The translations under genes and the position numbers were made by a program. Source: a bacterium (lineage in GTDB: Bacteria; Latescibacterota; Latescibacteria; Latescibacterales; Latescibacteraceae). Taken from it: a DNA stretch of 43,176 nt. The number at the start of each line of letters is the position of its first letter. The stretch's first letter is position 1. The DNA is taken from assembly GCA_021372535.1 (NCBI GenBank), contig JAJFUH010000009.1, forward strand, positions 1 through 43,176. Direction: 5' to 3'. Shown here piece by piece: positions 1,559 to 38,096 of the stretch. Under the pieces are notes generated by a model. That model did not search any database. It had not been told where the DNA came from and worked only from the letters and a program-made list of their open reading frames with translations.

Positions 1559-4500
1559 TTACCGGAGCAGCAGCATCTGTTTTTCCTCTTTACCCGCAGA
1601 TGTCAGTAACCGGTAAATGTAAACTCCCGAACTGACACGGTATCCGCTTTCGTCGGTACCGTCCCATGTTACCGTATGCAATCCCGGTTGTTCATTACTG
1701 CTGATGAGCGTTTTTACTTTCTGGCCGTTGATGTTGTAAACAGTCAGAAGTATGTTTGACGGTTTTTCAATGGCATAGCTGATCGATGTTGCAGGATTGA
1801 ACGGATTCGGAACATTCTGATGCAGTTTTACGGGAACAGGGAAAACAATGGTATTCGTATCGAAAGGATTGATAGCTTCGATTGAAGGTGTCATCTTTGC
1901 GAACGTTTCGGCTTCGACAGCTTCGAGTACTTCAACCGATATTGGAAAGTCCCCTTTATCGCTGACCGGTCGCATTCTCATTCCCGGAAACGATACCGTT
2001 TCAAGGCCAGCAGGTTCCATTCTCAACATGCGCAGTTCTCCCGAGGATACGGAACGATCGTTAATCAGGGCATTTTCCGGCGGTCCGGTAATACCCGCAT
2101 ACCGGTAAGCATCAGAATTCCACCTGACAACGACTGATGCCGCGCCGATAAGAACTCGTGATTCTCCCGATTCTATCGAGACTGTGAGAATTATGTCATC
2201 TGCTTCCCCCGGATGAACCTGAATATGAGGAAAAGCTGTAGCGCGTGAGAATATCGGAGGCGTCAGAACCAATTTAGCGACCGCGCTCCTCTGCTGTCCG
2301 ACCCGGGCGGGAAGGCTTGGATAATCCGGCTGGATACCATACCGGGCGCAGATCAATCCGTCGGCAAGATCCGGTTTGCCGTCCGCGTTTACATCTCCAT
2401 AGTTCAGCACATTGTTTTCATAAGAACCGACCGGTATATCGATGCCATAACTCCCGATGATGAGCCCGTCCGCGCTGTTCACTGTGCCGTTGCCGTTCAC
2501 TTCTCCCCATATTCCCGATGGCACGATGGAGAACGACTGGTCGCTGACATCGTATATGGCGGCATCTGCGGTCGAGCTTATTCTTATCCTGCAGTTCGAG
2601 GATGTTATATCGGGAACCGTCCAAGTATATGATTTGTTCGAGGCACTGACACTCGCGGTTACAACAGACCATGTACTCCCGCCGTTCTGGGAATATTCGA
2701 TTTTTACTCTGTCGACATTCTGGGATGTCCATGTAATCGCATACTGTGATCCCGCAACCAATGTCTCCCCGCCATTCGGCAACCCCACAAGAATCGAGGT
2801 TTGCCCCGTTACGATATAATCATAATTGTCCGTACTGGTCAAAGGTATGAGATCGGTATATGTTCTGGCAGCGGAAAGACTCAATACATCCAGATGAATC
2901 ACACCGGTTGTATTCGCGTTTCCGATAACATCGAGAACAACATTGAACACATTCACTTTCCCGGTCGAACCCTGCGAATAGATATTCGAACTTTTCAGAA
3001 TCCCCTGGCCTGTGTTCGTTTCGTTCAACAGCGGATCGCTCCATCCGGTTGTCGAACCGCCGTTCGTTCTGATATATCTCAGCGAAGCGGCAGACCATGA
3101 CAATGCAATCGAATATTCGCCGAGCGAATAGGAACTGCCCGTCATGTCGATCACTACGGGTACAACGACCTGCTGACCCGATATCACGGGATTCTTTTCG
3201 GGATATATCTTTACTTCCTCATTTGCCCACACGTCCGCGGAAATCACCCCTTTGAAGGAGTCCTCTCCGACCCAGAACCATCCGGTGCGTTCGTCAGTAT
3301 TCTCAGCAGACTGGTTTGTCACCAGAAGACCATCATAAGGCGATTCATATGAAATGACAGCGGTATCATATTTCTGACCGGTTGTCTCTCCGGCGAGGGC
3401 CAGATAACCGACTCCGGTACCGTCCGGAGCAAACATGCCGAATGACACGGCGCCCAAATCATAACAGGGGAAAAAGGAAAATCCGTTGTTATCGAAAACA
3501 AAATTATATTTATAAGGACCGACATTATAATCATTGCATACCCACGGCTTGGGTGAATCAATCTCGAAATTGTGATCGCCGATATAATCGCCGTTCTGGT
3601 TTACCCAGAGAACGGCTTCATTTTCAGAAATGTAGAGAACGTCAAAGAGCATATTGACACACGATGCAAGCGATCCGAGAGCAGCGGCATCACCCCACAT
3701 GGAAATAAGCGCCGGCCCGTTGTTTGCCTGGGCACCGGCTTCCGCGTCACCCATATTAACCCACCAGGATGACAGATCGTACCGTTTAACCTCTGCTCCC
3801 GTATCGACATCCACATAGATCAACTCGGGTTTGGTAGTATTTCCAGACATATCACCCTGTGTTACGAGAAGGTAATCTCCGCCGTTACTGACCACACCGG
3901 GTCCATATTCCCATCCGGCCAGGTTAGGTACCGCAAATATATATTCGCCGTCCTCACCCCAGTCCATCTGTTTCTCTGCCTGACCGTTGGGGATCCATTT
4001 CCATGCATACAGGACCTTATTTCCATTATTATTGAGACTGCATTTGAAAAATTCCCGGTGATCATCGGGATGCCACGCCAGCCCACCGGGATCGCAGACT
4101 TCCCACGATGCGCATGTTTCCAGAAGGGTCGCGTCATAAGGATCATACCCGACAATCCATTTTTTATTGCTGTGTTCCCTGAGAGCCGTATTCGAGGCAC
4201 TTCCTCCGCCCCGGTCACCGCTGCCTGCCCAGATCACAGGGTGGACAAGAGGAGAACCCTGCTCATCGTGTGTTTCGAGCGTTATGCGGTTCCATGGATT
4301 GGGAGTAATCTGCTTTGTCAGCAGTGTCTTGGCACTGAAAGAATCATAACCCCATATGTAGTATGTATATTCTCCTGGAGGAACAATATTTCCATCATTA
4401 TCCTTGCCGTTCCAGTAAAGAACATTCGTCCCGGTCGCAAGATTGGTCAGAGCCGACATGTAGATACAGGTATCGATCTTGTTGACATAATGCCAGCCCA

Positions 4501-4735
4501 GATACCCGTTTCGTATATTCCTGATTGACGATGCCTTGTCTTTCGTAAAAACACAAAACAAGGTTGTAGCCGTAGTGCCACTGACATTCAGAGGTATCGT
4601 CAGGGTGGAACCATCAAAATTATACTGAATGTTGCCCGGTGCCGATATTTTAAGCTGAGTAGGGACAAAACTTGCGGCGTATGCACAGTGTGAAAGAAGA
4701 ATGACTGCGATCTGGGCACATATGAGCCTGTACAT
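1559..4735 (-). CDS. Secreted mosaic protein: FlgD-like Ig, cohesin-like, Ig, dockerin-like, C-terminal sorting domain
   Basis: The 1058-residue product starts at an ATG 7 bases behind GGAGG. Order of parts: signal peptide 1-20; FlgD-like Ig domain about 24-145 (WNGKDNDGNIVPPGEYTYY); an unassigned 146-505 region; cohesin-like beta-sandwich about 508-640 (SYSLGEYSIALSW); Kre9/Knh1-type Ig about 648-738 (PNGGETLVAGSQYAITW); dockerin-like pair of calcium loops about 741-806 (EVNGNGTVNSADG, DVNADGKPDLADG; the first loop begins with Glu instead of Asp); second cohesin-like segment about 840-945; C-terminal domain 970-1058 with NVPNPFNPATSISY and SSGVYIYRL, typical of type IX/FlgD-like sorting tails. 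It probably acts outside the cell, possibly as a scaffold or carbohydrate-binding surface protein. Its upstream neighbour at 4862 is a close paralogue. No catalytic motif was recognised, so the enzymatic role is unknown. Confidence 0.85.
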   Translation of the reverse strand: MYRLICAQIAVILLSHCAYAASFVPTQLKISAPGNIQYNFDGSTLTIPLNVSGTTATTLFCVFTKDKASSIRNIRNGYLGWHYVNKIDTCIYMSALTNLATGTNVLYWNGKDNDGNIVPPGEYTYYIWGYDSFSAKTLLTKQITPNPWNRITLETHDEQGSPLVHPVIWAGSGDRGGGSASNTALREHSNKKWIVGYDPYDATLLETCASWEVCDPGGLAWHPDDHREFFKCSLNNNGNKVLYAWKWIPNGQAEKQMDWGEDGEYIFAVPNLAGWEYGPGVVSNGGDYLLVTQGDMSGNTTKPELIYVDVDTGAEVKRYDLSSWWVNMGDAEAGAQANNGPALISMWGDAAALGSLASCVNMLFDVLYISENEAVLWVNQNGDYIGDHNFEIDSPKPWVCNDYNVGPYKYNFVFDNNGFSFFPCYDLGAVSFGMFAPDGTGVGYLALAGETTGQKYDTAVISYESPYDGLLVTNQSAENTDERTGWFWVGEDSFKGVISADVWANEEVKIYPEKNPVISGQQVVVPVVIDMTGSSYSLGEYSIALSWSAASLRYIRTNGGSTTGWSDPLLNETNTGQGILKSSNIYSQGSTGKVNVFNVVLDVIGNANTTGVIHLDVLSLSAARTYTDLIPLTSTDNYDYIVTGQTSILVGLPNGGETLVAGSQYAITWTSQNVDRVKIEYSQNGGSTWSVVTASVSASNKSYTWTVPDITSSNCRIRISSTADAAIYDVSDQSFSIVPSGIWGEVNGNGTVNSADGLIIGSYGIDIPVGSYENNVLNYGDVNADGKPDLADGLICARYGIQPDYPSLPARVGQQRSAVAKLVLTPPIFSRATAFPHIQVHPGEADDIILTVSIESGESRVLIGAASVVVRWNSDAYRYAGITGPPENALINDRSVSSGELRMLRMEPAGLETVSFPGMRMRPVSDKGDFPISVEVLEAVEAETFAKMTPSIEAINPFDTNTIVFPVPVKLHQNVPNPFNPATSISYAIEKPSNILLTVYNINGQKVKTLISSNEQPGLHTVTWDGTDESGYRVSSGVYIYRLLTSAGKEEKQMLLLR

Positions 4736-4861: not shown

Positions 4862-7800
4862 TTACCGGAGCAACAGCATCTGTTTCCGGTCACTCCACCC
4901 GCTTGTGACAAGCTGATAGATATACACTCCGGAACTGACAATCCTCCCGTCATCATCGGTACCGTCCCAGATAACTTCATGGGTTCCGGAAGATTCGTAT
5001 CTGTCGGCGAGGATTCTCACTTTCTGTCCATAAACGTTATATAACGTGAGCACTACATGTGCAGGCGCGGATACCGTATATGATATCGATGTGACAGGAT
5101 TGAACGGATTCGGTACATTCTGTCTGAGTTTAAAAGATACGGGTGACATGCCGGTTAACCCGTCATCGGGATATACCCGCCGGTGATCGGTCTCAAGATA
5201 TGCAAACATTTCGGCATCAACGGCATCGAGTACTTCCAGACTCACGGAACCTGCATGATTTTCATGGAGAGACTGCAGCCTCACACCGGGAAACCCGAAC
5301 GCGGTTTCGCCATTAACTCTTATACGTGCTATCCGAAGCTCGCCTTCGCCGGTAAGGGAATCGTTGATAATTATACTTCCCGTAGAATTCTCGTCGATAC
5401 CGTTATAACGGAATACGTTCGGATCCCATCGGAGTATGACGGAAGCCGCTCCGATAAGAGTTCGCCGTCCCGCCGTACTGACCGATGAGTCGATAATGAT
5501 ATCGTTTGTCTCGGAAACATGCGCTTCTATGGTTGGAATCGCCCGTTCATGCAACACGCGGGCCTGTTCGGGGACCATTTTAGCTACGGTGCCCAGACGT
5601 CGTCCGATCCTCGCGGGAAGACCGGAGTAATCCGGCTGAATACCATACCGTGCGCAGATCAGCCCGTCCGCCAGGTCTTTTTTCCCATCGGCGTTGACAT
5701 CCCCGCATTTGAGAACACCGGATTCGAATGAACCGGCCGGTATATTGATACCGTAGCTTGCAATTATCAGCCCGTCCGCGCTGTTCACCGTTTCGTTGCC
5801 GTTCACATCACCCCAGATTCCCTCTTCGGCTGCTCCGGCAATAGTGTATGTATATTCGCCTATCGTCGTTATGGATAAAAGATTGTCATACGACTTCGCA
5901 GCCGACAGGCTGATGAGTTTCAGATCAAGCGTTCCGCCGGACCCGGCGCTTCCGATGACATCGAAAACGATATTGAATACATTTACGTTCCCCGAAGAAC
6001 CCTGAGCGTAGATGCCGGAACATTTCAGCTCTCCCTGCCCCGTTCCGGAATCGTTTACGAGGGGATTGCTCCATCCCGATGTTGCGCCGCCGGATGTACT
6101 CACATAGCGGAGCCGTGATGTCGACCATAACACCGACACCGAATATTCTCCGAGGCTGTATGAGCTTTTTGACATATCGATATACACAGGAATGGTGATA
6201 CGGCTGCTGGCGGCGAATGAAGACTCTCCGAAATATGCTGATATTTCTTCATCGGAAGACGGCACTTCCGCCGACGTGACAACCGATGAGGTGATCGTTC
6301 CCTTGATCGAATCCCAGCCTGAATACCAGGTTCCGTCTTCGGTTTTAAGAGTGCCGTCACTCGTTGTTTTAGCGACTGTCGAATAGATGCCGTCAAAAGC
6401 AGAGCCGTTGTCACATATGTCAATCCCGTACTTGTAGGCGGCGGTTTCTCCTGCGAATGCATAATAACCCATGCCGGTTCCATCGGGCGCCAAAAGACCG
6501 AACGAAACTGCTCCGAGATCGAAAGACGGACTCAGAGCAAAATAATTGGCGTCGGAAACGAAAGTATAGGTATACGGCCCGACATTGTAGTCATTACATA
6601 CCCATGGCATAGTTGCATCCGGCGCAAAATTATGATCCAGAATGTAATCGCCGTTGCCGTTGACGTAAACGACCAGATCGTTAAAATCATCCAATCCCCT
6701 CATCGGATCGATCACCTGTTTGAGACATGAACAGTGACAGCCGAGGAAAAGGAGGTTATTTCTGATGGACATCGTTCCGGGCCCGCCATGCATCTGTCCA
6801 CCCCTGTCATAATCTTCAATACTTGCCCAGAATTCCGTTATATCGAAAAGTTCCATCAGCATTCCGGAATCGATGTCCACTATCCAGAGTTCATCATGGA
6901 AATAGTTTTCCTGGTATGGATTGGCTGTAACATAGAGGAAGATACCATCGGTAACCGCGTTCATTTGCCTGTTCTGTGTCTGATCCCATAGAACAACGCC
7001 GCCGTCTCCCCAATCCTTCTCTACCACTGCCTCACCGTTCGGGACCCATCTGTATTTCCAGATGCCTCCTGTATTCCAATCCGGGTTATGCATAGGAAAG
7101 AATACATAGTTCCAGTCATCCGGTTGAATGACATACCGTTGCTTCTGAACCCATCCCGATTCGCTGTAAACAGTCATGGTTTCCAGTAACTGTGCATCCA
7201 CAGGATCGTTACCGATTTTCCATTTGTAATATTTCCCGGCAAAAACAGGATTGGCGAGCGGAATACCATTTTCATCCTTTTCGAGTATCTGAGTATCATA
7301 AAACGGGCGAATATTGACTGCATTCGAATTACCGGCCGTGATATTGATTGCCGCAACTCTCGCATTGACAGCGTCATAACCCCACAGATAGTAGGTATAA
7401 TCTCCGGAGGCACATATTTTCCCGTCGTTGTCACGGCCATCCCAGGTTATTGTATTATTTCCTTCCGACATCATGACGGGAGCCGCGACATATACACAGG
7501 TATCGATCTTGTTGACATAATGCCATCCGAGAAAACCGTTTCGTGTACTTATAATTTCCGAAGCCTTGTCCTTCGTGAACACGCACAGGGTCACCAGCGC
7601 CGGAGTGCCGGAAACCGTTACCGGTATCGATAGCTGCGTATGATCAAAAGCATAATGAATGGTTTCAGGAGACGATAATGTGAGAGCAGACGGAGTGAAA
7701 GAACCTGATGGAGTTGAAATTATCGAGAATGTGCCGTTACTCTTGTCGAAAACGGAGGAATTGTTGCTGTCGGTGATGCGAACAAGACATTTTGATGCGT

Positions 7801-8581
7801 TATTATTGGGAACCGACCAGGGATAATATCCCTTCGAAGCATCAACATGCGATCCTATTGTTGCCCATGAACTCCCGTTATCGGCAGAGTATTCGATATT
7901 GACGGAATTTACCGATACAGTCTGCCATGTTATTACCTTGCGCGTATTCCCCTGCCAATGTTCGCCGCCATTGGGGGAAAGAACGTTTATCGGGTAAACC
8001 GTCTGATTGACCGAAAAAACTCGCGATCCTAAATCACGTAATATTCCACTATCATTAGTAATTTTGATATGGACATTTATATTTAAAATATCCTGCGCCG
8101 TAAAAGAGGCGCCCGTTTTGAACACACACATGTGAAGAAGCCCGTAATTGCCGGTATTAATACTGCTTCCCTGCCGTACAAAATCTCTTGAATATTTTCC
8201 GGTCTGGTTTATTTCCCCTGCCGTTAACAGGTTTCCCCCCAGTACATTCGTCTCACTGGCGAACGTCACGGTCGATCCGTTGAAAACCATGGTGTTTTCC
8301 TGCACATCGGTCCCGGAAGATGTCGTTCTATACTCTGCTTTTGAGCCATCCCATGTACATTCAATCGAGAAACCTCTCAGGCTGTCCACATTTTTTACAT
8401 ACACAGCAAATCCGATATAGCTGTTCGGGCCTATACCGGTCGGATTATTCTGTCCCTGATATCCCGCGGATGAAATAACCGTATCAAGCGCAAAAAAAGC
8501 CTCGCTGTTATTCTGAGCGACTGCAACATTATGGAAACAGAAGAAGAAAATCAAACCGAGAAATACTCTGATATTGTTCAT
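4862..8581 (-). CDS. Secreted mosaic protein, paralogue of the 1559-4735 gene with an extra N-terminal cohesin-like domain
   Basis: The 1239-residue product starts at an ATG preceded by AGAGGAAAT. Signal peptide 1-22, then a cohesin-like domain about 25-195, a Kre9/Knh1-type Ig about 198-288 (PNGGEHWQGNTRKVITW), a FlgD-like Ig about 296-420 (WDGRDNDGKICASGDYTYY), an unassigned middle about 420-775, a cohesin-like domain about 785-915 (SYSLGEYSVSVLW), a dockerin-like pair about 920-985 (DVNGNETVNSADG, DVNADGKKDLADG), another cohesin-like segment, and a C-terminal sorting domain from about 1150 (NVPNPFNPVTSISY, SSGVYIYQL). Compared with the neighbour at 1559, the Ig module sits at the N-terminal side, so modules have been shuffled. 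Both share PWVCNDYNVGPY in the unassigned region. It lies between the PEGA gene (147 bases upstream) and its paralogue (126 bases downstream), suggesting one transcript. Likely an extracellular structural or binding protein; function is inferred. Confidence 0.85.
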   Translation of the reverse strand: MNNIRVFLGLIFFFCFHNVAVAQNNSEAFFALDTVISSAGYQGQNNPTGIGPNSYIGFAVYVKNVDSLRGFSIECTWDGSKAEYRTTSSGTDVQENTMVFNGSTVTFASETNVLGGNLLTAGEINQTGKYSRDFVRQGSSINTGNYGLLHMCVFKTGASFTAQDILNINVHIKITNDSGILRDLGSRVFSVNQTVYPINVLSPNGGEHWQGNTRKVITWQTVSVNSVNIEYSADNGSSWATIGSHVDASKGYYPWSVPNNNASKCLVRITDSNNSSVFDKSNGTFSIISTPSGSFTPSALTLSSPETIHYAFDHTQLSIPVTVSGTPALVTLCVFTKDKASEIISTRNGFLGWHYVNKIDTCVYVAAPVMMSEGNNTITWDGRDNDGKICASGDYTYYLWGYDAVNARVAAINITAGNSNAVNIRPFYDTQILEKDENGIPLANPVFAGKYYKWKIGNDPVDAQLLETMTVYSESGWVQKQRYVIQPDDWNYVFFPMHNPDWNTGGIWKYRWVPNGEAVVEKDWGDGGVVLWDQTQNRQMNAVTDGIFLYVTANPYQENYFHDELWIVDIDSGMLMELFDITEFWASIEDYDRGGQMHGGPGTMSIRNNLLFLGCHCSCLKQVIDPMRGLDDFNDLVVYVNGNGDYILDHNFAPDATMPWVCNDYNVGPYTYTFVSDANYFALSPSFDLGAVSFGLLAPDGTGMGYYAFAGETAAYKYGIDICDNGSAFDGIYSTVAKTTSDGTLKTEDGTWYSGWDSIKGTITSSVVTSAEVPSSDEEISAYFGESSFAASSRITIPVYIDMSKSSYSLGEYSVSVLWSTSRLRYVSTSGGATSGWSNPLVNDSGTGQGELKCSGIYAQGSSGNVNVFNIVFDVIGSAGSGGTLDLKLISLSAAKSYDNLLSITTIGEYTYTIAGAAEEGIWGDVNGNETVNSADGLIIASYGINIPAGSFESGVLKCGDVNADGKKDLADGLICARYGIQPDYSGLPARIGRRLGTVAKMVPEQARVLHERAIPTIEAHVSETNDIIIDSSVSTAGRRTLIGAASVILRWDPNVFRYNGIDENSTGSIIINDSLTGEGELRIARIRVNGETAFGFPGVRLQSLHENHAGSVSLEVLDAVDAEMFAYLETDHRRVYPDDGLTGMSPVSFKLRQNVPNPFNPVTSISYTVSAPAHVVLTLYNVYGQKVRILADRYESSGTHEVIWDGTDDDGRIVSSGVYIYQLVTSGWSDRKQMLLLR

Positions 8582-22822: not shown

Positions 22823-25800
22823 TCACTTCTTCAATTCGATCGATCCCTGTCCCGCAGGTACTCCGAGCGAAACAAATCCTGTCTCGCGGTCGTATTTCCA
22901 GCCTTTTATCTTCTCGCCGTTCACCATAACAGCGTGTACCCGCTCCGGGGAGAGGATTTCGAGCGCAGCGGGTTCAACAGTACTGTAGGAGACGGCATCC
23001 TGCTCAATGAGAACCGTTATCGGCCTGTCGGAATTCACCACGGTTTTCCCTTTAATCGAGCCGAATGTCGCACCGGCAAGCAGAAAGCCGCCATCGCGGG
23101 ACAGCGCCGCACACAGGCCGTCCGTGCCGATCGATCCGTTATCCGCAGCGGTGCCCGACCGGTTGATGAGCACATCAACGTCGTCAAACTCGATGACCAT
23201 ATATTCCCCGAAGCTCTGCGATTTCCTTACATGAAGCTCGGTTGACAGGATTACGGCGGAGACCGCTTTCCCGCCTGATGTTGCAAGGTTCACGGTCACA
23301 CGGCCGAGCGGTTCGATTGGATTATCTGTGAGCATACCGAGCTTGACCGGATCGGCATCGAGGGTCAGAGAGGGTCTGGCATCCTGACCGAGCGCGATTC
23401 CCGCAAGTCTGGTAATACCGGAACTGACGGTGAAAACATCCTCATCGGCGAGCACCATGTCAGACAGCTTCGGGCCATGAAACAGCACATCCATCGATGC
23501 TTCCCCCTGCTGGGTCTCAAGCCTGTCGATAACGACAGCCGTACGGGGAGCTATATAGAGGATACCGCGTTCGAGCCTTTTTACGTTGCCCAGATAGAGC
23601 GGGGTGAGATCGCCCAGAGCGAACGCCATGTCACGGCCGTTGACGAAGGATGTTATCCGCGCATGATCGTTCATTCCGGCCGCATAGTCGCCGTGATCGC
23701 CCGTTCTCTGGCTCTGCGGGTTATGATCGACGAGAACGCAGTTGTGCCCGATGGGCTGGATTATATGACTCTGGTAAAAAGGATCGTTATAATAGTCGCT
23801 GTATTCCTGCTCGGTTATAAGGAGTCTGCCGCGGTCGGAGAGAAAAAACGTTCCCTGGTCGAGGTGCTGATGATTGCCGAAAGGACCGCACCTGAAGGTC
23901 AGGACAAATGGCTCCGGGCCGGGTCCCGAGCGGAACACCACCGTGCCGGTTTTCCTGAACCACTTTGCGCCCGTGAGATTTCCCGGCTGTTTGCGCGGGA
24001 TATCGTCGATATCGTACAGAACGGTATGAAACGTGTAGTAGGACGGCGTCGGCGGATTGAGATCGTAGAACCAGGCAAGCTCGGGATCGCGGAATTTTTC
24101 GAGCAGCCAGGGGAAAGCCGACATATCCGGCGGCGTAATCCGGGCATCGCCGAAGGTGAAATAGAGCCCGGCGTCATGGTCGGCTGCCCAGAATCCCTCG
24201 GTATACTGACGGTCGAGCATTGGCGACATGTCGATATTGAGGCATTTCTCGAAAAAGGGCAGTATCTCGGTATAGATACGCATGGTCCCGTACCCGTAGC
24301 CGTACCCTTCGAGGCAGCCGCTGTCGCCGTCATACACGGTATTCATGTGCGCTCTCAGTTTGTACAGGCACCCGCTCAGCATGGGTTCGAGACCGGTCGT
24401 GTCACCCGTTTCCCCGAGGATCGCAGTCGCGCCCGCAAGAGCCCCGCCGACAATCGCGGGTATCCAGTTCGACTCGTTGCACGTGCACTGGTCGGCAACA
24501 ACATACGTCCTGTAAGCCGGTTCGAGACCGTTACGGATCATCGCCTGCCGGACTGTGTCGCGTTCCTCTTCGGTCAGGCGGTCGTAGAGAATATCGTAGG
24601 TCAATGCCAGATTGCAGGTCGTATAGTATTGGTAGAGGTAGATATGATGCCCCCGGTTGACCATCCACGGGTGTGTCCATGTCGGCCAGCGGCAGAGCGC
24701 AATGAGCGCCTGTTTCGCCCATTCCGCCGCTTCCTCGTCGCCATCGACAACCGAGACGATGGCATTTGCCTCGGCCCGCTGGGGTATGGTCGCTATCCGC
24801 GTACGGTACGGCTCGAACGATGAGAGCCACCCCTTTTCGGGGAAATAATCGAGATCATAGGGAAGCTCTGTGGAGTATTTTTCACGGCCTTCGCGGGCAT
24901 CGGACCTGATTTTTTCGAGAAAGGCGGCGTTTTTCGGTTGTTTGAGACGCGCGACGAACGCTTCCCTGCCCTCACTGTCGAACCAGAGCCGTGGATGGGA
25001 AGCGAAACGCCGGTCATCCATTACCATGAAGGTAAATATCGACCGTGCGACAATCTCTTTTTTCCGTTCGCCGGTCAGCGTTACTTCGTACATTCCCGCC
25101 GGAAACCGTTTCCCGTCGAGGGCAGGCGGCTTATGGAGAGTCCATGAATCGCCATCCTTGTCGAGTTTTTCGGTGTATACCGTTTTCTCCGGCCTGTCGA
25201 ACCGGGTTATACTTACGGTGACGTTGTCCGGGGATGAGGAGGCGCATGTCCCCCTGATAGACAGCGTATCGCCCTCACGGTAATGATTGAGGGCAATCGC
25301 GGAATCCCACTCGTCGAGCGATTCCGTTCGCGGCTCCACGAAGGTAAACTGCGCTTCACGGTATCCCGAGACGGAGAAATCGTCGAAACCGGCTGCTATG
25401 GGTATGTCGGGATCGGCGCTCTCAAAGCGCACGGTGACGGCCAGGGCGGTTATATCGAGCTCTCCTGCAGGGGCACGGCCCGCCGCTTTCAGAATGTCGG
25501 CGATACCGAGGTCGAGGAGCACCCACCGGTTCGTTTCGGGATTCATGAACCGCGACCGCACCCTGTCGCCGTTCGCCATGGGAAGATCGATGCCGAGCCA
25601 TGATGGTTTGACCGTACTCTTGATATAGTACCTGAACCGTACGCGGCTCCGGTCATCGAGCCTCATGCTGAGCCGTTTGACCACGCCGGTAAGCTGCGGG
25701 GCGTTCCACTGCGGGTAGATAATCTTGCACAGAACTGTTCCCTGCTCGCCGGGCTGAATGGTTCCCGGATAGATGTACGGCGCTTCATAGGCGGCGTCCT

Positions 25801-25936
25801 GTATGGGCGGATAGCTCGACCATCCCATTGTCTCACGGGTCTCGAAATCCTGGCGGCAGGTCCACGGCTCGTAATCTATCGCTGAAACAGGCGTGACAGT
25901 GAAAATCAGCCCCGCAATACACCACAGTATTTTCAT
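22823..25936 (-). CDS. Heparinase II/III-like polysaccharide lyase, paralogue 1
   Basis: The 1037-residue product starts at an ATG behind GGAGATAGTC; a TTG 18 bases earlier extends the frame but lacks a suitable ribosome site. Parts: signal peptide 1-19; CBM-like beta-sandwich (about 25-195, QDFETRETMGWSSYPP); Ig-like linker to about 305; alpha/alpha-toroid about 310-640 with CNESNW (Asn490); C-terminal beta-sandwich with NHQHLDQG (His689, His691) and QPIGHNCVLVD. In related lyases the Asn, His and Tyr side chains bind the uronate and abstract the proton. It likely cleaves an acidic polysaccharide outside the cytoplasm by beta-elimination. It is the last gene of the run with the hydroxyacid dehydrogenase, symporter and cyclodeaminase-like genes, lying 54 bases behind the dehydrogenase. 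Two similar genes are at 30213 and 34917. Confidence 0.9.
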   Translation of the reverse strand: MKILWCIAGLIFTVTPVSAIDYEPWTCRQDFETRETMGWSSYPPIQDAAYEAPYIYPGTIQPGEQGTVLCKIIYPQWNAPQLTGVVKRLSMRLDDRSRVRFRYYIKSTVKPSWLGIDLPMANGDRVRSRFMNPETNRWVLLDLGIADILKAAGRAPAGELDITALAVTVRFESADPDIPIAAGFDDFSVSGYREAQFTFVEPRTESLDEWDSAIALNHYREGDTLSIRGTCASSSPDNVTVSITRFDRPEKTVYTEKLDKDGDSWTLHKPPALDGKRFPAGMYEVTLTGERKKEIVARSIFTFMVMDDRRFASHPRLWFDSEGREAFVARLKQPKNAAFLEKIRSDAREGREKYSTELPYDLDYFPEKGWLSSFEPYRTRIATIPQRAEANAIVSVVDGDEEAAEWAKQALIALCRWPTWTHPWMVNRGHHIYLYQYYTTCNLALTYDILYDRLTEEERDTVRQAMIRNGLEPAYRTYVVADQCTCNESNWIPAIVGGALAGATAILGETGDTTGLEPMLSGCLYKLRAHMNTVYDGDSGCLEGYGYGYGTMRIYTEILPFFEKCLNIDMSPMLDRQYTEGFWAADHDAGLYFTFGDARITPPDMSAFPWLLEKFRDPELAWFYDLNPPTPSYYTFHTVLYDIDDIPRKQPGNLTGAKWFRKTGTVVFRSGPGPEPFVLTFRCGPFGNHQHLDQGTFFLSDRGRLLITEQEYSDYYNDPFYQSHIIQPIGHNCVLVDHNPQSQRTGDHGDYAAGMNDHARITSFVNGRDMAFALGDLTPLYLGNVKRLERGILYIAPRTAVVIDRLETQQGEASMDVLFHGPKLSDMVLADEDVFTVSSGITRLAGIALGQDARPSLTLDADPVKLGMLTDNPIEPLGRVTVNLATSGGKAVSAVILSTELHVRKSQSFGEYMVIEFDDVDVLINRSGTAADNGSIGTDGLCAALSRDGGFLLAGATFGSIKGKTVVNSDRPITVLIEQDAVSYSTVEPAALEILSPERVHAVMVNGEKIKGWKYDRETGFVSLGVPAGQGSIELKK

Positions 25937-25990
25937 GACTATCTCCATCTCCAATGAAAAAAGTTGTCTTACGGGAAATTGAAGAAAGGC

Positions 25991-30212: not shown

Positions 30213-33200
30213 TTACTTTCCGACTGTCACTTCCCCCTCTCCGGCGGGAAGCTTCATGCGTACAATTTTTCGCTCGGCATCGTAGCTGAAATCTTTCACC
30301 GGTTTCCCGTTAACGGTTACAGCAGATGGCCGGGCGGCAGCTCCGAAAGCGACACTGCTTTCACATGAGAGACAGTATGTATAACCGTTTCCCCCTGTCT
30401 CGCACGTTATCGGCGCGGATGATTCGATCAACACCGTTCCATTCCTGAGAAGCGATGTACAGAGCGCGGCGAAGACACTCGAATCGTCCCATGTCACTGC
30501 CAGTGCATCGGTTGCAATATCCCCGGCAGTATAGATACAACCAGGCCGGGTTGCAAACGCGAATTTCGCTCCCCGGATCGTGCCGGATATGCAACCGTCG
30601 CCTTTAACGGTAACAACGTCCGGCTCAACCACGTCATCGGTGGACAGGAGATTCGCCATGACAAGCGGCACCCGGTCGGTACGGGCGGTTACCGTGAGCA
30701 TACCCTCTCTTCTCAGGGGTTTCTCGTTCTGGAGAGTATAGAGATAGTGCGGTGTTTCGACCGCTCTCACATCGAGGTGATCCGGATACAGGTGCCTGAT
30801 GTTGAGTGTCTTTTCGCTTGTTGGCGTTTTTGTGGTTTTAACCACTTCGCCGCGCATTTTCTCCGGGTCTTCGATGAGCTTGAGCTTGTCGTGGAGGGTG
30901 ATGGCCGAAACCGTGTCACCGGCCGTTATATCGTCAAGATAGTTCGTCTGGAAAAGAAGCGTCACATCGACATCACGGTCGCCGGGGACCGCAGTATCGA
31001 GCATGAGCAGTGTCCGGGGCTTGAGATACAGGACATTCCGTCTCAGGCACTTAACCTTCCCCCAGTAGAGACGTCCGATATCTCCCGAGGTGAAAGCGGC
31101 GTTCTTTCCGTCAAGAAACTGGTTGATGAAGGCATAGTCATCGAATCCGTCCACATGCCAGAGGAGGTCACCCACACGCTGGCTCTGGTGATTTCCGTTG
31201 ATAAGGATGGTCGAATGACCGACCGGCTGGGTATACCATGGCTGATAGAGGGGATCCTCGTAATAGGTGCTGCCGTGACGCTCCTCGATGAATATCCCGC
31301 CGCGGTCGGCGAGCCAGAACGATCCCTGGTCGATATGCTGGTGGTTGACAAAAGGTCCGGTACGCAGAACAAATACGAAATCATCGGGATTCCAGCCGCT
31401 CTTGAACACCGTGGTGCCCACATCCCTGAACACCATGACTGGATTCTCGTCGAACGGATCGTCCTGAGACACATCCTTTGTTTCGTAGAGCACATCCATG
31501 AAGGTTTCGCCTTCCTTCATGAAGTTATAAAACCACCCGAGCAGCGGATCCTTGTATTTGGGCAGCATCCACGCAAAGTTGGTTAGAGGTCGCAGGTTTT
31601 CTCCCGAATCGCCGAAATAGAAGGCCTTTTTGTCCTTGACGATTCCCGCCCAGACAGTTTCTTTATATGACCCGTTAAGCTTCCCCGACATATCGACCCT
31701 GAACACATTTCCCACTGCCGGAAGACTCTTCGACCACGAGAGCATCGAGAAATTGTAGTACCCGTATCCTTCGCCGTAAGCACCGTCACGGTCGGTGACT
31801 TTCTGGATGAGATCGTAATCTTTCAATATGGCGCCCGTAAAGTACGGTTCGAGCTGTGCGACATCGGGGCCGTCGCCGTACATCGCGGCCTGGCACATGA
31901 GCGACCCGCCGGTGATATGGGCAACCCAGTTCGAGGTGTTCGAGGTAACGAGGTCGTCCTCCACATATCCCTGGTGGCAACCGAGAACGATGAACCGCAT
32001 CATGCCGTCGCGGACAGCCTTACGCTCGGTGTCGCTCATAAGATCGTACGTCAGGTCATAGGCCATAGCCATGTCCATGCCGAATTCACCGACCGGATAG
32101 TAGATATGCCTCCCCCGCTTGACCATCCAGGGATGAAGGATATAGGGAAACGAGCTGATTTTCACCATCATGTCTTTTGCATATATACCCGCCTCACGGT
32201 CGCCGGCGAAGGCGTATGCGAGCGCATTGCTATAGAATGCAGAACGCCATGTGTGAATTCTCGCGCTCGACCAGCCCCGGAGGGTCGGAATCCAGTCTTC
32301 ATCGGGGAACTGGTCGATATCGAACACGACCTTGTCGAGCGGGGTTTCGCTGCGGGATGATTGAGCCTGTTTGACAATAGAATCGTATACCGATTTGAAA
32401 CGGTCTGTCTTGAGGCGGGCATCGACCCAATTCTTCTTCTTTTCGGCATCGAACCAGAGGCGCGGATGGCTGCCCCCGATGTTTTTCGGGGCTATGTAGA
32501 TCGTAAATTCGGTGTCGGAAAGCCGTTCGCCGCCCTTGAAGGCTTCGAGCACTGCATGATACAGCCCTTCCGGGAAAGACAGCCGAAACGAAGTGCCCCA
32601 TTCGTCGCCTTTTTTCTTCAGCTCGCCGGAATACACCGTTTTCGTGCTGTCGGTAAACAACTTTACGGTCAGGGAAACGCGGTTCACATCGAGTGGCCAG
32701 TTCCCCCGGAGCGTGAACGTGTCGCCGGCATTATAGTGCCTGTCGGGTATGTATGGCTTCCATTCGGAGAGCTTGAACACCTTCGGCTCGGCGAACTGGA
32801 ATGCCAGTGCTCTCGCGCCCTTGACCGTAATATCGTCAAGGCCGAAAAATATGGGCATCGCGGGATCGGCATCCGGAAATTTCGCAAGCACCGCGAGAGC
32901 ATTCACCTTTATCCTGTCACGGCCTGCGAGACGGGGATTCTCACGGATAAAATCATTGTACGAGAGCGCAACCGGCACCCAGCGGTTGGTCGGAGGGTCG
33001 GGTATGGTAACATCCACCTTTTTATCCGGTCCGGCGGCAAGCCTCACCTTGATGTATTCAGGGCGGAGCTCCGTTTTCAGATAGTACCTCAGGGAAACGG
33101 TCGAACCGGGCACGAAATACATATCGAGCTCTTTCTGTGCGCCCGCGTAATTGTCCACATTCGTATAGGGAGTGACTTTCTGGACGAGCGCTATGTTGGG

Positions 33201-33404
33201 ATCGCCGGGCACCATGGTATTCACCCGTATGTTGGGATCGTATGCAGTATCCTGCCAGAGGGGATACGAAGCCCATGCCGACAGCTCCCTGGTCTCGAAA
33301 TCCTGACGGTAGGAAAACGGCTCGAGCGCGGTATCGGCGGAAATATCCCGTGCAGCCGCGAATACAAGCATGCATGACATAATCAGAACAGCGAATACTT
33401 TCAT
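30213..33404 (-). CDS. Heparinase II/III-like polysaccharide lyase, paralogue 2
   Basis: The 1063-residue product starts at an ATG behind AGGAAGG. Signal peptide 1-24; N-terminal beta-sandwich about 30-200 (QDFETRELSAWASYPLWQD); linker to about 305; alpha/alpha-toroid with NTSNWVAHITGG (Asn492, Trp493) and EGYGYYNFS (about 545-553); C-terminal beta-sandwich with NHQHIDQGSFW (His688, His690) and QPVGHSTILING (about 726-737). The same catalytic-type Asn, Tyr and His are found in the paralogues, so it is probably an active lyase acting on an acidic polysaccharide at the cell surface or outside. It is very close in pattern to paralogue 3 (34917), from which the FliG-like gene separates it. Its substrate is unknown; heparinase-type, alginate and other uronate-containing glycans are possible. 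Confidence 0.9.
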   Translation of the reverse strand: MKVFAVLIMSCMLVFAAARDISADTALEPFSYRQDFETRELSAWASYPLWQDTAYDPNIRVNTMVPGDPNIALVQKVTPYTNVDNYAGAQKELDMYFVPGSTVSLRYYLKTELRPEYIKVRLAAGPDKKVDVTIPDPPTNRWVPVALSYNDFIRENPRLAGRDRIKVNALAVLAKFPDADPAMPIFFGLDDITVKGARALAFQFAEPKVFKLSEWKPYIPDRHYNAGDTFTLRGNWPLDVNRVSLTVKLFTDSTKTVYSGELKKKGDEWGTSFRLSFPEGLYHAVLEAFKGGERLSDTEFTIYIAPKNIGGSHPRLWFDAEKKKNWVDARLKTDRFKSVYDSIVKQAQSSRSETPLDKVVFDIDQFPDEDWIPTLRGWSSARIHTWRSAFYSNALAYAFAGDREAGIYAKDMMVKISSFPYILHPWMVKRGRHIYYPVGEFGMDMAMAYDLTYDLMSDTERKAVRDGMMRFIVLGCHQGYVEDDLVTSNTSNWVAHITGGSLMCQAAMYGDGPDVAQLEPYFTGAILKDYDLIQKVTDRDGAYGEGYGYYNFSMLSWSKSLPAVGNVFRVDMSGKLNGSYKETVWAGIVKDKKAFYFGDSGENLRPLTNFAWMLPKYKDPLLGWFYNFMKEGETFMDVLYETKDVSQDDPFDENPVMVFRDVGTTVFKSGWNPDDFVFVLRTGPFVNHQHIDQGSFWLADRGGIFIEERHGSTYYEDPLYQPWYTQPVGHSTILINGNHQSQRVGDLLWHVDGFDDYAFINQFLDGKNAAFTSGDIGRLYWGKVKCLRRNVLYLKPRTLLMLDTAVPGDRDVDVTLLFQTNYLDDITAGDTVSAITLHDKLKLIEDPEKMRGEVVKTTKTPTSEKTLNIRHLYPDHLDVRAVETPHYLYTLQNEKPLRREGMLTVTARTDRVPLVMANLLSTDDVVEPDVVTVKGDGCISGTIRGAKFAFATRPGCIYTAGDIATDALAVTWDDSSVFAALCTSLLRNGTVLIESSAPITCETGGNGYTYCLSCESSVAFGAAARPSAVTVNGKPVKDFSYDAERKIVRMKLPAGEGEVTVGK

Positions 33405-33772
33405 GACACCTTCCTTTGTTGTATGGGTACCATTTTAAACCGATTTTATCTGAAAATATACATAAAATATTTCACCACGGAGACACGGAGATCACGGAGA
33501 AAGAAAAACTTTGTAATGACATGTTTTATTGGATATTATCTGAAAATACATTTTCATCCTTCGTTGTGACCATGTATGGTCATGATGGTTATTCATGAAA
33601 AAAATTCAACGCAAAGACACGGAGTAGGGGAAATTCATGAAGTACCCCTACAATGTTACATCGGTCAGTTACGAAAAAACAAATCCGCAAAAATCCTCGT
33701 TCTACTGAATTTTTTGAACAGATCGGGCTGAGTACGGACGCTTGATATTCAGAAAAAGAATATTCTCTATCA
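33405..33772. other. Intergenic region with degenerate repeats, no gene
   Basis: The 368 bases before heparinase 2 include TTCACCACGGAGACACGGAG (33471-33490), ACGCAAAGACACGGAG (33609-33624), two copies of TTATCTGAAAATA (about 33447 and 33536) and ACAAATCCGCAAAAATCC (about 33678), relatives of repeats in the 20902-21050 gap. No gene is visible. Confidence 0.55.
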
Positions 33773-34654
33773 TCACACAAAGATATCATTGTCACCGCCC
33801 TTTTTTCCCCGCCTGATAACTATCTGCTGCTCTCGTTCAAGACAACGGACAACCTCGATGATACGCGCCTGCGATTCTTTAACCACAGACAATCTCATCG
33901 GCCCCATGTACTCAATTTCATCATTGATCATCGTTTTGACACGGTTTGAAACATTCCCGAAGATCAGGTCCTTCAATTTCTGTGAAGCGCCTTTCAGGGC
34001 AACCGCCAACTCCTTTATATCGACTTCCTTGAGAACGAGTTGAATGGCTCGGTCATCGAAACCCAGAAGGTCCTCGAAAAAGAAGAGTCTTTCGTGTATC
34101 TTATCCACGAGGGCTTCGCTCTCCTCGTTCATCCTGGCAAAAATGTCGTTACGAATGTCGCTGTCGAGGGATTCGAATATCGGCGCGAGAAAGACAATGC
34201 CAGCTTCGGGCTCGGGAAAGCCATGGGGAATATCCGCCAGCATCTGCTGGATCGAACCGATCTGGTCCGGAGACATTTTCTCCATGGCGGCGACAGACAG
34301 AATAATGTCCGTCGGCGAAATAGCGTCGAGCTGCGCGATGCGCATAATCAAATCGACCTGAAGGTCCCCGGGCATGGTACTCAGCAGCCGCGCCGCTTCG
34401 ACCGGATCAATCTGTGAGAGCATGACCGCGACAAGCTGAGGAAACTCCTGCTCGCTTCGCCGGAAGTCGCCGTTGAGCACCTTGCTGGTAAAGTTCATAT
34501 CATGCGCGGACTGGTACACAAGCTTGATGGCTTCCTCTTCCGTCAGGGCAGTGACCTCCCTGGTATTCTTGTCGAAGGAAATCCAGAGGTCCGAGGTCGT
34601 CCGGTAGAGCATGACAGCCTCGTTTTCGTACATAAGCTCAATGCGGTAGTCCAT
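33773..34654 (-). CDS. FliG-like protein with FliG middle and C-terminal domains and a new N-terminus
   Basis: The 293-residue product has a FliG-type middle domain about 66-145 (EFPQLVAVMLSQIDPVEAA, compare the EHPQ motif) and C-terminal domain about 190-290 (FEDLLGFDDRAIQLVLKEVD, ALKGAS, GPMRLSVV). In flagellar motors FliG sits on the MS ring and its C-terminal charged ridge interacts with stators; the Asp-Arg and Lys-Glu-Val-Asp positions of that ridge are kept. The usual FliG N-terminal domain, which binds FliF, is absent: the first 65 residues (MDYRIELMYENEAVMLYR onward) are unfamiliar. No flagellar, chemotaxis or gliding gene lies nearby; its neighbours are two heparinase-like genes. 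A stop in frame limits upstream extension. It could be a motor paralogue, part of another ring system, or an orphan of a lost flagellum. Confidence 0.8.
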   Translation of the reverse strand: MDYRIELMYENEAVMLYRTTSDLWISFDKNTREVTALTEEEAIKLVYQSAHDMNFTSKVLNGDFRRSEQEFPQLVAVMLSQIDPVEAARLLSTMPGDLQVDLIMRIAQLDAISPTDIILSVAAMEKMSPDQIGSIQQMLADIPHGFPEPEAGIVFLAPIFESLDSDIRNDIFARMNEESEALVDKIHERLFFFEDLLGFDDRAIQLVLKEVDIKELAVALKGASQKLKDLIFGNVSNRVKTMINDEIEYMGPMRLSVVKESQARIIEVVRCLEREQQIVIRRGKKGGDNDIFV

Positions 34655-34855
34655 GTTGTTTGCCCCGGCGGTTATATATCAACCTGAATTTACCTGAAAA
34701 TACATTTGGAATAAAATCCTCCTGTCCTTCGGACATCCCCCCGAAAAAGGGGGACACGGTACAGCTGAGGGGGGCCTGCGGTCGACAGGGAACTCAGCCC
34801 CCAGTACATCGGTATCACGTACCGAAATTCAAGATTCAAGTTCTCAACTACACAT

Positions 34856-34916: not shown

Positions 34917-37900
34917 CTATTGAAACACCACCGTTCCTTCACCGGCGGGCAGTTCGATGATACACGCCTTTCTTTCAAGATCATATGTCCATTCCGTCAC
35001 CCGTTTGCCATTCAGGATAACCTGCGATGGCCGCGATCCCGCACCCAGCGCGACTGTACCGGTGGTGCGGTGATAGTACTTCACAGTTCTTTCACCGATT
35101 TCGCAGGTTACCGGTTTCTTCGCATCGAGCAGGAGGCCGCTGTCACGGGAAAGCGTCGTACACACAGCCGCGAAAACTGTCGCGCCTTGTTCGGTAATCG
35201 CACAGGCATCGGTATCGAGCGAACCGAAATGGTAAACCGCGCCGGGCCGCGTTGAAAAAGCGAACGGAACACCGTCGATCGAACCGTACATGCAGTTTCC
35301 TCCTTTCACTGCCTGTATGTCGGGTTTACCGCCGTCCGTCGTTTTCAGAATATTGGCCAGAACGAGGGGAACGCCTGTTGTTCTCGATGTCACGGTCAGC
35401 ATGCCCTCGCGTTCGAGGGGCTTTTCATTCATGAGCGTTTCGGTGTAATGAGGAGTTTCCACCGCGGCAATCTCACGCTGTTCGGGACAGAGGTGCGCAA
35501 TATTGAGTGTTTTGCCGTCAATGGTGATTCCCGACAAATCATTTCCTGCGGCAATATTTTTCAGGAACGGCGTCTGGTACAGGAGGGTGACATCGACATC
35601 ATTATCCTCCGGTATGACCGTATCGATCATCAGGAGCGTGCGGGGTTTGAGATAGAGGACATTACGCCTCATTTCCTTCACCTTCCCCCAGTAGAGCCGT
35701 CCGATGTCGCCGGACGAAAAGGCAGCCGATTTCCCATCGAGAAAATGATACAGAAACGCATAATCATCGAACCCTTTCGCCATTTCGAGCGGATCACCCA
35801 CGCGCTGGCTCTGGTGGTTATGGTCGATGAGAATGGTGGAATGGCCGATGGGCTGCGTATACCATGATTGATAGAGCGGATCGGTATAGTAGGAGGCGCC
35901 GTGACGTTCCTCGATAAAACTGCTGCCACGGTCGGAGAGCCAGAACGATCCCTGGTCAAGGTGCTGGTGGTTGTAGAATGCCCCGGTATGCATGACGAAC
36001 ACAAAATCGTCCGGTTCCCATCCGCTCTTGAACACGGTGATCCCCACATCGCGGAATACCCTGACGGGAGGCTCGTCGAACGGAGGTTTCTTCGGAACAT
36101 CCCATGTCTCGTAGAGGGCATCCATGAAAGTTTCTCTGGCGTTCTTCGCGGAGGGTGCATCGGCAGTTTTTGTTTCAGGCCCGTATGATACATCGTATTT
36201 CAGGAAATTGTACAGCCATCCGAGCTGCGGGTCCTTGTATTTGTCAAGCAGCCACGCCCAGTTGGTCAGCTCCGTGATTTCGCTGTCGGAATCGCCGAAA
36301 AAGAAGGCTTTTTTCTTCTTCACGATTCCCGCCCAGATGAGTTCCGCATATGAACGGTCGATCTTCCCGGACATATCGATTTTGAAAACATTCTCGACAG
36401 CCGGCAGCGAATACGACCAGGAATACATGGAAAAATCGTAATACCCGTACCCCTCTCCTTGCGAGCCGTCACTGTCAAATACTTTCTGGATAAGATCGTA
36501 ATCTTTCAGTATGGCGCCGGTGAAATACGGTTCGAGGTCGCCGAGTCCCGTATCGTCACCGTATATGGCTGCCTGGCACATGAGCGAGCCGCCGGTGATA
36601 TGAGCCACCCAGTTCGAGGTGTTGTTCGTGACGAGATTGTCCTCCACATATCCTTTGTGGCAGCCGACAACGACATTCTTCATCATGGCGTCCCGGATAA
36701 TTTTCCGCTCGTTTTCACTCATGAGATCATAGAGGAGGTCGTATCCAACGGCGAGCTCCATGCCAAACTCACCGATGGGATAGTATATGTGACGGCCCCG
36801 CTCGATGAACCAGGGGTGGAGCCAGTATGGGAACGCACCCAGTTTGATCATGAGATTTTTCCCGTACTCTCCCGCCTCGTTGTCGCCGAGGAGACCGTAC
36901 GCAAACGCACTGTAATAGACTCCCTGTCTCCAGACTCTGAGACGGTCGAACCAGGGATAAATCGAGGGCAGTTGATTACCCGTGTGAAGGACCGTATTGA
37001 ACTGGTCGATCTCGAAGATGATTGAATCGAGGGGATTATTCTCACGGGTGTCACGGGCCTGTTTGAGGATATTATCGGCGACCTGTTTGAAACGCTCGCT
37101 TTTAAGACGGGCTTCGACGCGTTTCTTTCCCTCGGAATCAAACCATACACGGGGATGGTTCCGGCCGAGATTCTCCGGAGCTATGTAGAACGTACATTCG
37201 GTCCCGGAAAGTATTTTCTTACCGTCATATGCCCGGAGATCCGCATGGTAGAGACCCTCGGGAAATGACAGCGTAAAAGCCGCTGACCATTCATTTCCCT
37301 TCTTTCGCAGTTCCGCAGTGTACACTTCCTTCGTGCGTTCGGTAAACGGCGTCACCGTAATGGTCGCTCTGTCCGCATCGAGCGGCCACTGTCCCCTTAC
37401 CGTAAAGGTTTCCCCTTTCCGATAATGTCTGTCGGGAATATACGGCGCCCACTCCGAAAGCTTGTGCATGACAGGTTCGGCAAACTTGAAATGCACGGCC
37501 CGGGCGCCTTTGAACGTTATATCGTCAAGACCGAGATAGAACGGCATTTCCGGGTCCGCATCGGGGATTTTCACCAGTACCGCGAGGGCATATACCGGAA
37601 CAGCTTTCTTCCCGGCAAGCCGTGGATTCTCAAGAATGAGGTCATTATATGAAACGGTTATCCATTCCCATCGGTTTGTTGCGGGATCGGTGATTGTATA
37701 GTCTACTTTGCCGTCGTCACCCGCGGCGAGGCGTATTTTCAGAAACTCCACGGGAAGATTTGACTTGAGATAGAATCTGAGTGAAATGGTCACCCCCGGA
37801 GTCATATACATGTCGAGTTTTTTCTGAGCGCCGGCATAGGTATCGACATTGGTATAAGGGGTAACCTTCTGAACGATGGAAATGTTCGGATCGCCGGGGA

Positions 37901-38096
37901 CGATCATCCCGACCCTGAAATTGGGATCATACGCCGTATCCTGCCAGAGAGGATATGACGCCCAGGCCTGAAGCTCCTGCGTTTCAAAGTTTTCCGCATA
38001 CGTAAAAGATTCCAGAGATTCATCGGCATGAACCGTAATAATTGACATCGCTCCTAATAGTACGAGCACAACAGCGGCACACAGGCAGGTTTTCAT
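34917..38096 (-). CDS. Heparinase II/III-like polysaccharide lyase, paralogue 3
   Basis: The 1059-residue product starts at an ATG behind AAAAGGA. Signal peptide 1-24; beta-sandwich about 30-200 (NFETQELQAWASYPLWQD); linker to about 305; alpha/alpha-toroid about 310-640 with NNTSNWVAHITGG (Asn495, Trp496) and EGYGYYDFS; C-terminal beta-sandwich with NHQHLDQGSFWLSDRG (His710, His712) and QPIGHSTILID. A short insertion around residues 634-655 sets it apart from paralogue 2, otherwise the pair is the closest of the three. It likely cleaves an acidic polysaccharide by beta-elimination outside the cytoplasm. It is the first heparinase on this strand; paralogue 2 lies past the FliG-like gene, so the three may form one regulon but not one transcript. 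Confidence 0.9.
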   Translation of the reverse strand: MKTCLCAAVVLVLLGAMSIITVHADESLESFTYAENFETQELQAWASYPLWQDTAYDPNFRVGMIVPGDPNISIVQKVTPYTNVDTYAGAQKKLDMYMTPGVTISLRFYLKSNLPVEFLKIRLAAGDDGKVDYTITDPATNRWEWITVSYNDLILENPRLAGKKAVPVYALAVLVKIPDADPEMPFYLGLDDITFKGARAVHFKFAEPVMHKLSEWAPYIPDRHYRKGETFTVRGQWPLDADRATITVTPFTERTKEVYTAELRKKGNEWSAAFTLSFPEGLYHADLRAYDGKKILSGTECTFYIAPENLGRNHPRVWFDSEGKKRVEARLKSERFKQVADNILKQARDTRENNPLDSIIFEIDQFNTVLHTGNQLPSIYPWFDRLRVWRQGVYYSAFAYGLLGDNEAGEYGKNLMIKLGAFPYWLHPWFIERGRHIYYPIGEFGMELAVGYDLLYDLMSENERKIIRDAMMKNVVVGCHKGYVEDNLVTNNTSNWVAHITGGSLMCQAAIYGDDTGLGDLEPYFTGAILKDYDLIQKVFDSDGSQGEGYGYYDFSMYSWSYSLPAVENVFKIDMSGKIDRSYAELIWAGIVKKKKAFFFGDSDSEITELTNWAWLLDKYKDPQLGWLYNFLKYDVSYGPETKTADAPSAKNARETFMDALYETWDVPKKPPFDEPPVRVFRDVGITVFKSGWEPDDFVFVMHTGAFYNHQHLDQGSFWLSDRGSSFIEERHGASYYTDPLYQSWYTQPIGHSTILIDHNHQSQRVGDPLEMAKGFDDYAFLYHFLDGKSAAFSSGDIGRLYWGKVKEMRRNVLYLKPRTLLMIDTVIPEDNDVDVTLLYQTPFLKNIAAGNDLSGITIDGKTLNIAHLCPEQREIAAVETPHYTETLMNEKPLEREGMLTVTSRTTGVPLVLANILKTTDGGKPDIQAVKGGNCMYGSIDGVPFAFSTRPGAVYHFGSLDTDACAITEQGATVFAAVCTTLSRDSGLLLDAKKPVTCEIGERTVKYYHRTTGTVALGAGSRPSQVILNGKRVTEWTYDLERKACIIELPAGEGTVVFQ

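Follow-up and report, generated by a model that had tools for sequence, protein, structure and literature searches.

What does a gene for a FliG-like protein do among heparinase genes, with no flagellar gene beside it? The question is raised by a 43,176-nucleotide stretch of DNA (the window), which is the entire contig C9 in a Latescibacteraceae genome of 5.35 Mb (95.9% complete). An intact reading frame of 293 codons, starting at an ATG, occupies positions 33773-34654 on the reverse strand and encodes a 293-residue protein with FliG_M and FliG_C domains and no FliG_N domain. The initial annotation had described an orphan FliG-like gene lacking the FliF-binding domain, and the reading frame, Pfam and NCBIfam all bear it out.

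Domains and genomic setting of the fliG-like gene

The FliG_C match (PF01706; 113.6 bits) spans residues 174-280, and the FliG_M match (PF14841; ARM_M; 55.5 bits) spans residues 69-115 (34310-34450, reverse strand), covering positions 10-56 of the 76 in the profile. Pfam gave no FliG_N match before residue 73, and a FliG_N match below the cut-off (17.6 bits) falls on FliG_M, at residues 73-116. The NCBIfam fliG model (TIGR00207) aligns residues 68-292 with model positions 128-337 at 159.7 bits, below its cut-off of 226.7; since the alignment starts at model position 128, the first third of FliG is missing. Both DDRAIQ and KEVD are present, and the earlier claim that the middle and C-terminal domains are kept together with these motifs agrees with Pfam and with the sequence.

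Based on the alignment, ARM_M is followed by a linker and ARM_C (residues 117-192; 34079-34306, reverse strand), with an insertion of approximately 11 residues in the linker, and then by the FliGC torque domain (residues 190-293; 33776-34087, reverse strand), which was delimited by alignment and structure match. Within ARM_M, EFPQ replaces EHPQ, whose histidine is shared by all 86 other FliG rows; this motif and R105 belong to the FliM-binding site. The first glycine of the GG hinge is an alanine, and LFFF replaces MFxF, a change that, judged from the alignments, may alter the hinge. Five of five stator-facing charges are kept, with K221, R238, D245, E246 and R254 aligning with E. coli K264, R281, D288, D289 and R297, the stator-facing charges of that protein. 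Relatives in the PDB are 1lkv, 3ajc and 4fhr, and the FliGC domain matches 1qc7_B (TM 0.97 over the target, rmsd 0.8) and 8ucs_H (TM 0.92 over the target, rmsd 1.3).

The gene lies between two heparinase II/III-like genes on the same strand, both with a Pfam Hepar_II_III_C match, one of 1059 aa upstream (34917-38096) and one of 1063 aa downstream (30213-33404), with flanking gaps of 262 and 368 bp. No flagellar gene was found among the 16 other window proteins scanned, so that this setting, too, is as first described. The FlgD_ig matches in two large proteins (1559-4735 and 4862-8581) are C-terminal Ig-like domains, and are read as sorting or surface domains, not as flagellar genes. Another heparinase-like paralogue is present at 22823-25954 (reverse strand), and a heparinase-like search from one window gene returned 19 matches in the host and 22 in the sister species. 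A heparinase array of the sister species (L098) has two such genes 124 bp apart with nothing between them; given this pair without an insert and the gaps in the window, the position of the fliG-like gene among lyase genes looks incidental. An operon link with the heparinase genes was rejected, as no promoter or terminator signal rose above shuffles; no sigma-70-like promoter was found on the strand of the gene, and promoter and terminator matches in the region are not in excess. Short, imperfect direct repeats in both flanking gaps (33432-33624 and 34676-34713) are possibly insertion traces.

The host genome has two PF01706 genes, the fliG-like gene and a canonical FliG. The latter is on contig C49, where a flagellar cluster contains FliF, FliG (all three domains), MotA, FliM, FliN (by Pfam) and FlhA. 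The canonical FliG lies beside fliF/fliH, and the fliG-like gene sits outside this cluster. FliF (PF08345), FliM (PF02154) and FlhA (PF00771) are each encoded by one gene in the host genome, all on C49, and FliMN_C (PF01052) is confined to the FliM and FliN genes, both on C49. No additional FliF, FliM or FliN for a second C-ring was found in this 95.9% complete genome, and with single copies of these proteins a second ring is unlikely. The suggestion that a motor component had been reused in another ring is therefore not supported here. MotA/TolQ/ExbB-type (MotA_ExbB) genes number seven, one of them within the flagellar cluster. Flagellar genes together with heparin-lyase-type enzymes, proposed to be ulvan lyases, are also described in passages of a report on Latescibacteria single-cell genomes (PMC4454575).

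Origin and constraint

In a tree of 81 rows built on the FliG middle and C-terminal domains, the fliG-like protein falls in a clade with three FliGs of its family (support 100/100), and a tree of 23 rows, a chosen subset of the 81, recovered the same four-member clade (support 100/99.8). The motifs EQQIVI, RLSVV and ELA[VI]ALK are limited, among the 81 rows, to these four proteins. Judged from the trees and the shared motifs, the gene is a paralogue of the host FliG, descended from FliG; a place among the FliGs that other families carry in many copies was rejected on the 81-row tree. The sister species has one FliG, and no orthologue of the fliG-like gene was found in G001 (same genus) or in G007 and G008 (same family), which leaves it in one of four family genomes. 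The copy may have arisen before or after the split of the genera (p-AU 0.10 and 0.17).

The protein is approximately 48% identical to the host FliG over the middle and C-terminal domains, and its end branch in the 81-row tree measures 1.89, compared with 0.03 for the canonical copies. Over 213 codons, the two genes differ at 42, 27 and 62% of first, second and third positions, where third-position change includes the canonical branch and so is not a clean rate test; the canonical FliG pair of the host (G000) and G001 differs at 9, 2 and 52%. Neutral simulations to 48% identity, which modelled substitutions without indels, kept the frame free of stops in 3 of 300 runs. Columns conserved across FliGs are retained in the order of their conservation, with 31 of 45 invariant columns, 42 of 78 of middling conservation and 25 of 89 variable columns kept.

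This constraint is uneven along the protein. Compared with the host FliG, ARM_M is 45% identical, the linker 21%, ARM_C 19% and the two FliGC halves 70% and 67%. The controls comprised 63 distinct FliGs of 38-60% overall identity, drawn from 69 distinct rows after six outside this band were dropped (77 of 85 rows with duplicates counted). None of the 63 was as low in the linker or ARM_C, none was as high in either FliGC half, and three were as low in ARM_M; since the controls share ancestry and the fliG-like copy is close to the reference, these counts are a contrast and not a p-value. The excess in FliGC is partly a matter of recency, as the host FliG and its duplicate separated recently, and FliGC is conserved in ordinary FliGs as well.

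Presence in one of four family genomes, the long end branch and the lack of a sigma-70-like promoter or of any regional promoter or terminator excess could all be expected of a duplicate in transit, with little or no expression, weakened constraint and no settled role, heading for loss. We consider this rather unlikely, given a frame that stayed open where few simulated ones did, codon third positions changed most and second positions least, a FliGC better kept than in all 63 controls, and the preferential retention of invariant over variable columns. A decayed copy was rejected as the main reading on the open frame, the normal codon use and the domain-specific constraint. As far as alignment and codon patterns go, the gene is a real, constrained FliG variant, known from a single genome. 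The initial annotation had advised looking for flagellar genes elsewhere, and held that a new system would be ruled out by a complete flagellar operon with its own FliG combined with decay of this gene: a cluster with its own full FliG is indeed present on C49, but the fliG-like gene is a diverged, constrained paralogue and not a decayed copy.

The N-terminal domain was said to have been replaced by unfamiliar residues, and this is upheld for residues 1-67 (34454-34654, reverse strand), a new domain delimited by coding score and an AF2 model, with no FliG_N homology by HMM and no family match. Codons 1-52 score 0.443 bits per codon in frame, where known genes range from 0.129 to 0.53 (5-95%) and out-of-frame scores from -0.72 to -0.093, and residues 1-67 are coding. 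Modelled alone from one sequence by AF2, they gave a mean pLDDT of 80.2 and a pTM of 0.64, with the order strand-strand-strand-strand-helix-strand. In a three-row AF2 job (whole-job mean pLDDT 58) they gave a pLDDT below 50 and a different secondary structure, probably due to false alignment in this region, the other rows being full FliGs. The head is thus predicted, from the standalone model, to be a small compact beta-alpha domain.

The idea that residues 1-67 retain part of FliG_N was rejected, as an HMM of 86 FliG N-termini gave 0.1 bit, a score matched by 228 of 2000 shuffles, and the pairwise scores with the host FliG and the G007 FliG were reached by 64 and 893 of 2000 shuffles, respectively. 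An extension from residue 34 in tblastn matches to E. coli and Salmonella was taken as chance. The proposed search for the head in other genomes returned no relatives: none in Pfam (sole match Ribosomal_L18A, E 0.067), none in 64 genomes of the phylum (two matches, at E 0.047 and E 0.089, were regarded as noise), none among 386 relatives and none in viral contigs. Fold searches of the PDB and BFVD gave nothing at E ≤ 0.001, and VIA-align gave Z up to 6.9, within the range that the tool calls common. Among the matches listed, whole-protein relatives in phages (5 records) and plasmids (20 of 77) start no earlier than residue 34. A scan of genome contigs gave two loci, both canonical FliGs; of two viral scans for further FliGs, one gave none and the other two partial loci.

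Proposed role and alternatives

The reading that we prefer, tentatively, is that the protein could be a stator-directed motor modulator, a brake or decoy, derived from a duplicate of the host fliG. The host gene was duplicated within the lineage, and the copy, now in the heparinase-gene array, has dropped the FliF-binding FliG_N and helix NM and gained a 67-residue beta-alpha domain. Its linker and ARM_C, which face FliM and the ring, have drifted, and the stator-contacting FliGC has been retained nearly unchanged. The protein would be cytoplasmic and unable to enter the FliF-anchored ring. Its free torque domain might dock on MotA, or bind FliGC partners, and docking might slow, block, disengage or redirect the flagellar motor stators, with the new N-domain setting when and where the protein acts, e.g. 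during polysaccharide feeding.

The comparison with the host FliG frames this proposal: the two proteins have FliG_M (here a partial profile match with EFPQ), FliG_C and the five stator-facing charges in common, and the fliG-like protein differs in having no FliG_N or helix NM, an insertion in the linker, a diverged ARM_C and an N-domain of its own. According to sections of a review, FliGN binds FliF, FliGM binds FliM and FliGC contacts MotA, with FliGN-FliGN and FliGM-FliGC as the ring-forming contacts (PMC11673145). Relative to the roles given in those sections, the fliG-like protein has lost the part for FliF binding, altered those for FliM and ring contacts and kept that for MotA. Most simply read, it would meet stators while staying outside the ring.

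Two kinds of known system are comparable. In the portions of PMC11302681 consulted, a FliGC piece joined to MotA is seen docked between the MotA subunits of MotA5B2, with up to three per stator (PDB 8ucs). This structure likewise presents FliGC without ring-building domains and with the same fold (TM 0.92); it is, however, an engineered MotA-FliGC fusion, whereas the protein described here is natural and free and has another head. Rotor or stator modulators are the second kind, and parts of the relevant papers describe EpsE as a clutch encoded in the eps polysaccharide operon of B. subtilis (PMC3000366) and YcgR as a motor brake responding to c-di-GMP (PMC10140304). EpsE likewise lies among polysaccharide genes, but it resembles a glycosyltransferase, and neither EpsE nor YcgR is, in those accounts, a FliG copy.

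The alternative suggestion of the initial annotation, a regulator, fits insofar as FliGC is constrained beyond 63 of 63 controls and the ring-building parts are released, with the function itself being our inference. Its role may be that of a brake, not of a component in another machine. The fuller proposition is more doubtful: a natural free torque domain, i.e. a FliG duplicate without ring anchors and with a new sensory head, regulating the motor by occupying stators. A literature search of open-licence papers found no FliG paralogue with a swapped N-domain.

EFPQ and R105 preserve most of the FliM-binding site, and the protein could on that basis be an alternative C-ring subunit, mixing into the flagellar ring via its middle domain and altering how some motors switch, Borrelia being the parallel. 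Excerpts from PMC7225975 give B. burgdorferi fliG1 and fliG2 different roles, and describe, as here, a second FliG gene besides the one needed for flagellar synthesis; they mention neither loss of a domain nor a swapped head, and the copy in the window is known from one genome only. Such mixing seems improbable with FliG_N missing, the EHPQ histidine, common to all 86 others, changed, and a linker and ARM_C less conserved than in any control. The contacts that form the ring, according to the review sections cited above (PMC11673145), are FliGN-FliGN and FliGM-FliGC.

Nor do we give much credence to a non-flagellar module, in which FliGC would work with another MotA/TolQ/ExbB-type channel or in a signalling scaffold. 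Seven MotA_ExbB genes with only one in the flagellar cluster would accommodate it, as would the FliG, FliM and FliN parts found elsewhere in the phylum outside flagellar loci and in fusions, but the trees show the fliG-like protein to be unrelated to those expansions, the host genome has no second FliM, FliN or FliF, and the flagellar charge pattern is retained. Finally, translation from an in-frame ATG at codon 53, ahead of the FliG-like part, would place a 52-residue head outside the protein, a wrong start that is very improbable given that codons 1-52 score like known genes and residues 1-67 alone give a compact AF2 model.

C-ring domains elsewhere in the phylum

Among 64 genomes of the phylum, 28 match the fliG-like protein at 1e-5, 25 have FlhA and 29 have FliM. 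FliG_C matches number 19 in G059, 12 in G063, 11 in G045 and 10 in G058, with high copy numbers also in other genomes of families f7-f10, and most examined FliG genes of these families have no flagellar neighbour detectable by blastp with the host cluster. FliG and FliM matches occur with neither FlhA nor FliF_C in G017, G052, G060 and G062, which possibly have switch proteins without a flagellum or are incomplete bins.

One 924-aa frame (L088:7423-10197, forward strand; G059:C15) combines FliM, two FliMN_C, FliG_N, FliG_M and FliG_C, and the 19 kb of L088 gave no further flagellar gene; no natural FliM-FliN-FliG fusion was found in the search of open-licence papers. Trios of FliN, FliG and FliM away from flagellar genes were observed at L112:5280-7481 (reverse strand; G053:C258; FliG of 303 aa) and L110:6814-9029 (reverse strand; G056:C68; FliG of 309 aa), their domains being confirmed by Pfam for L112 only. 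In both, a proline-rich head replaces FliG_N. The trios thus resemble the fliG-like gene in having FliG_M and FliG_C with the N-domain replaced, and differ from it in the nature of that head, in keeping EHPQ, in having FliM and FliN adjacent and in falling on a different tree branch.

Further fusions include a receiver-FliM-FliMN_C protein (L164:1550-2977, forward strand), an FGE-sulfatase-FliG protein (L114:3518-5602, reverse strand), a FliMN_C-FGE-sulfatase protein (L161:951-2177, reverse strand) and a Reg_prop/Y_Y_Y/SpoIIE protein with an embedded FliG_C (L161:4044-8165, reverse strand); all these loci come from metagenome bins, where assembly errors are possible. Four proteins of 447-591 aa (L157:8234-9901 and L155:7745-9520, forward strand; L085:7290-8660 and L085:8887-10230, reverse strand) have FliG_C as their sole Pfam match, once or twice, and by this profile evidence are an unnamed FliG_C-like repeat family. 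These fusions and expansions, as far as domain matches and trees can tell, are not orthologous to the fliG-like gene, yet show frequent recruitment of C-ring domains within the phylum.

FliG is usually treated as a fixed part of the rotor. A copy in which the stator face is kept and the ring-building faces are released would be a natural separation-of-function experiment, and would offer a simple route from a rotor gene to a motor regulator. If the reading as a natural free torque domain is true, the gene would be one of several independent departures of C-ring parts from the flagellum in this phylum. The phylum-wide spread and fusion of C-ring domains far from flagellar genes is more striking than the fliG-like gene itself, and raises the question of whether the switch complex is also a signalling scaffold.
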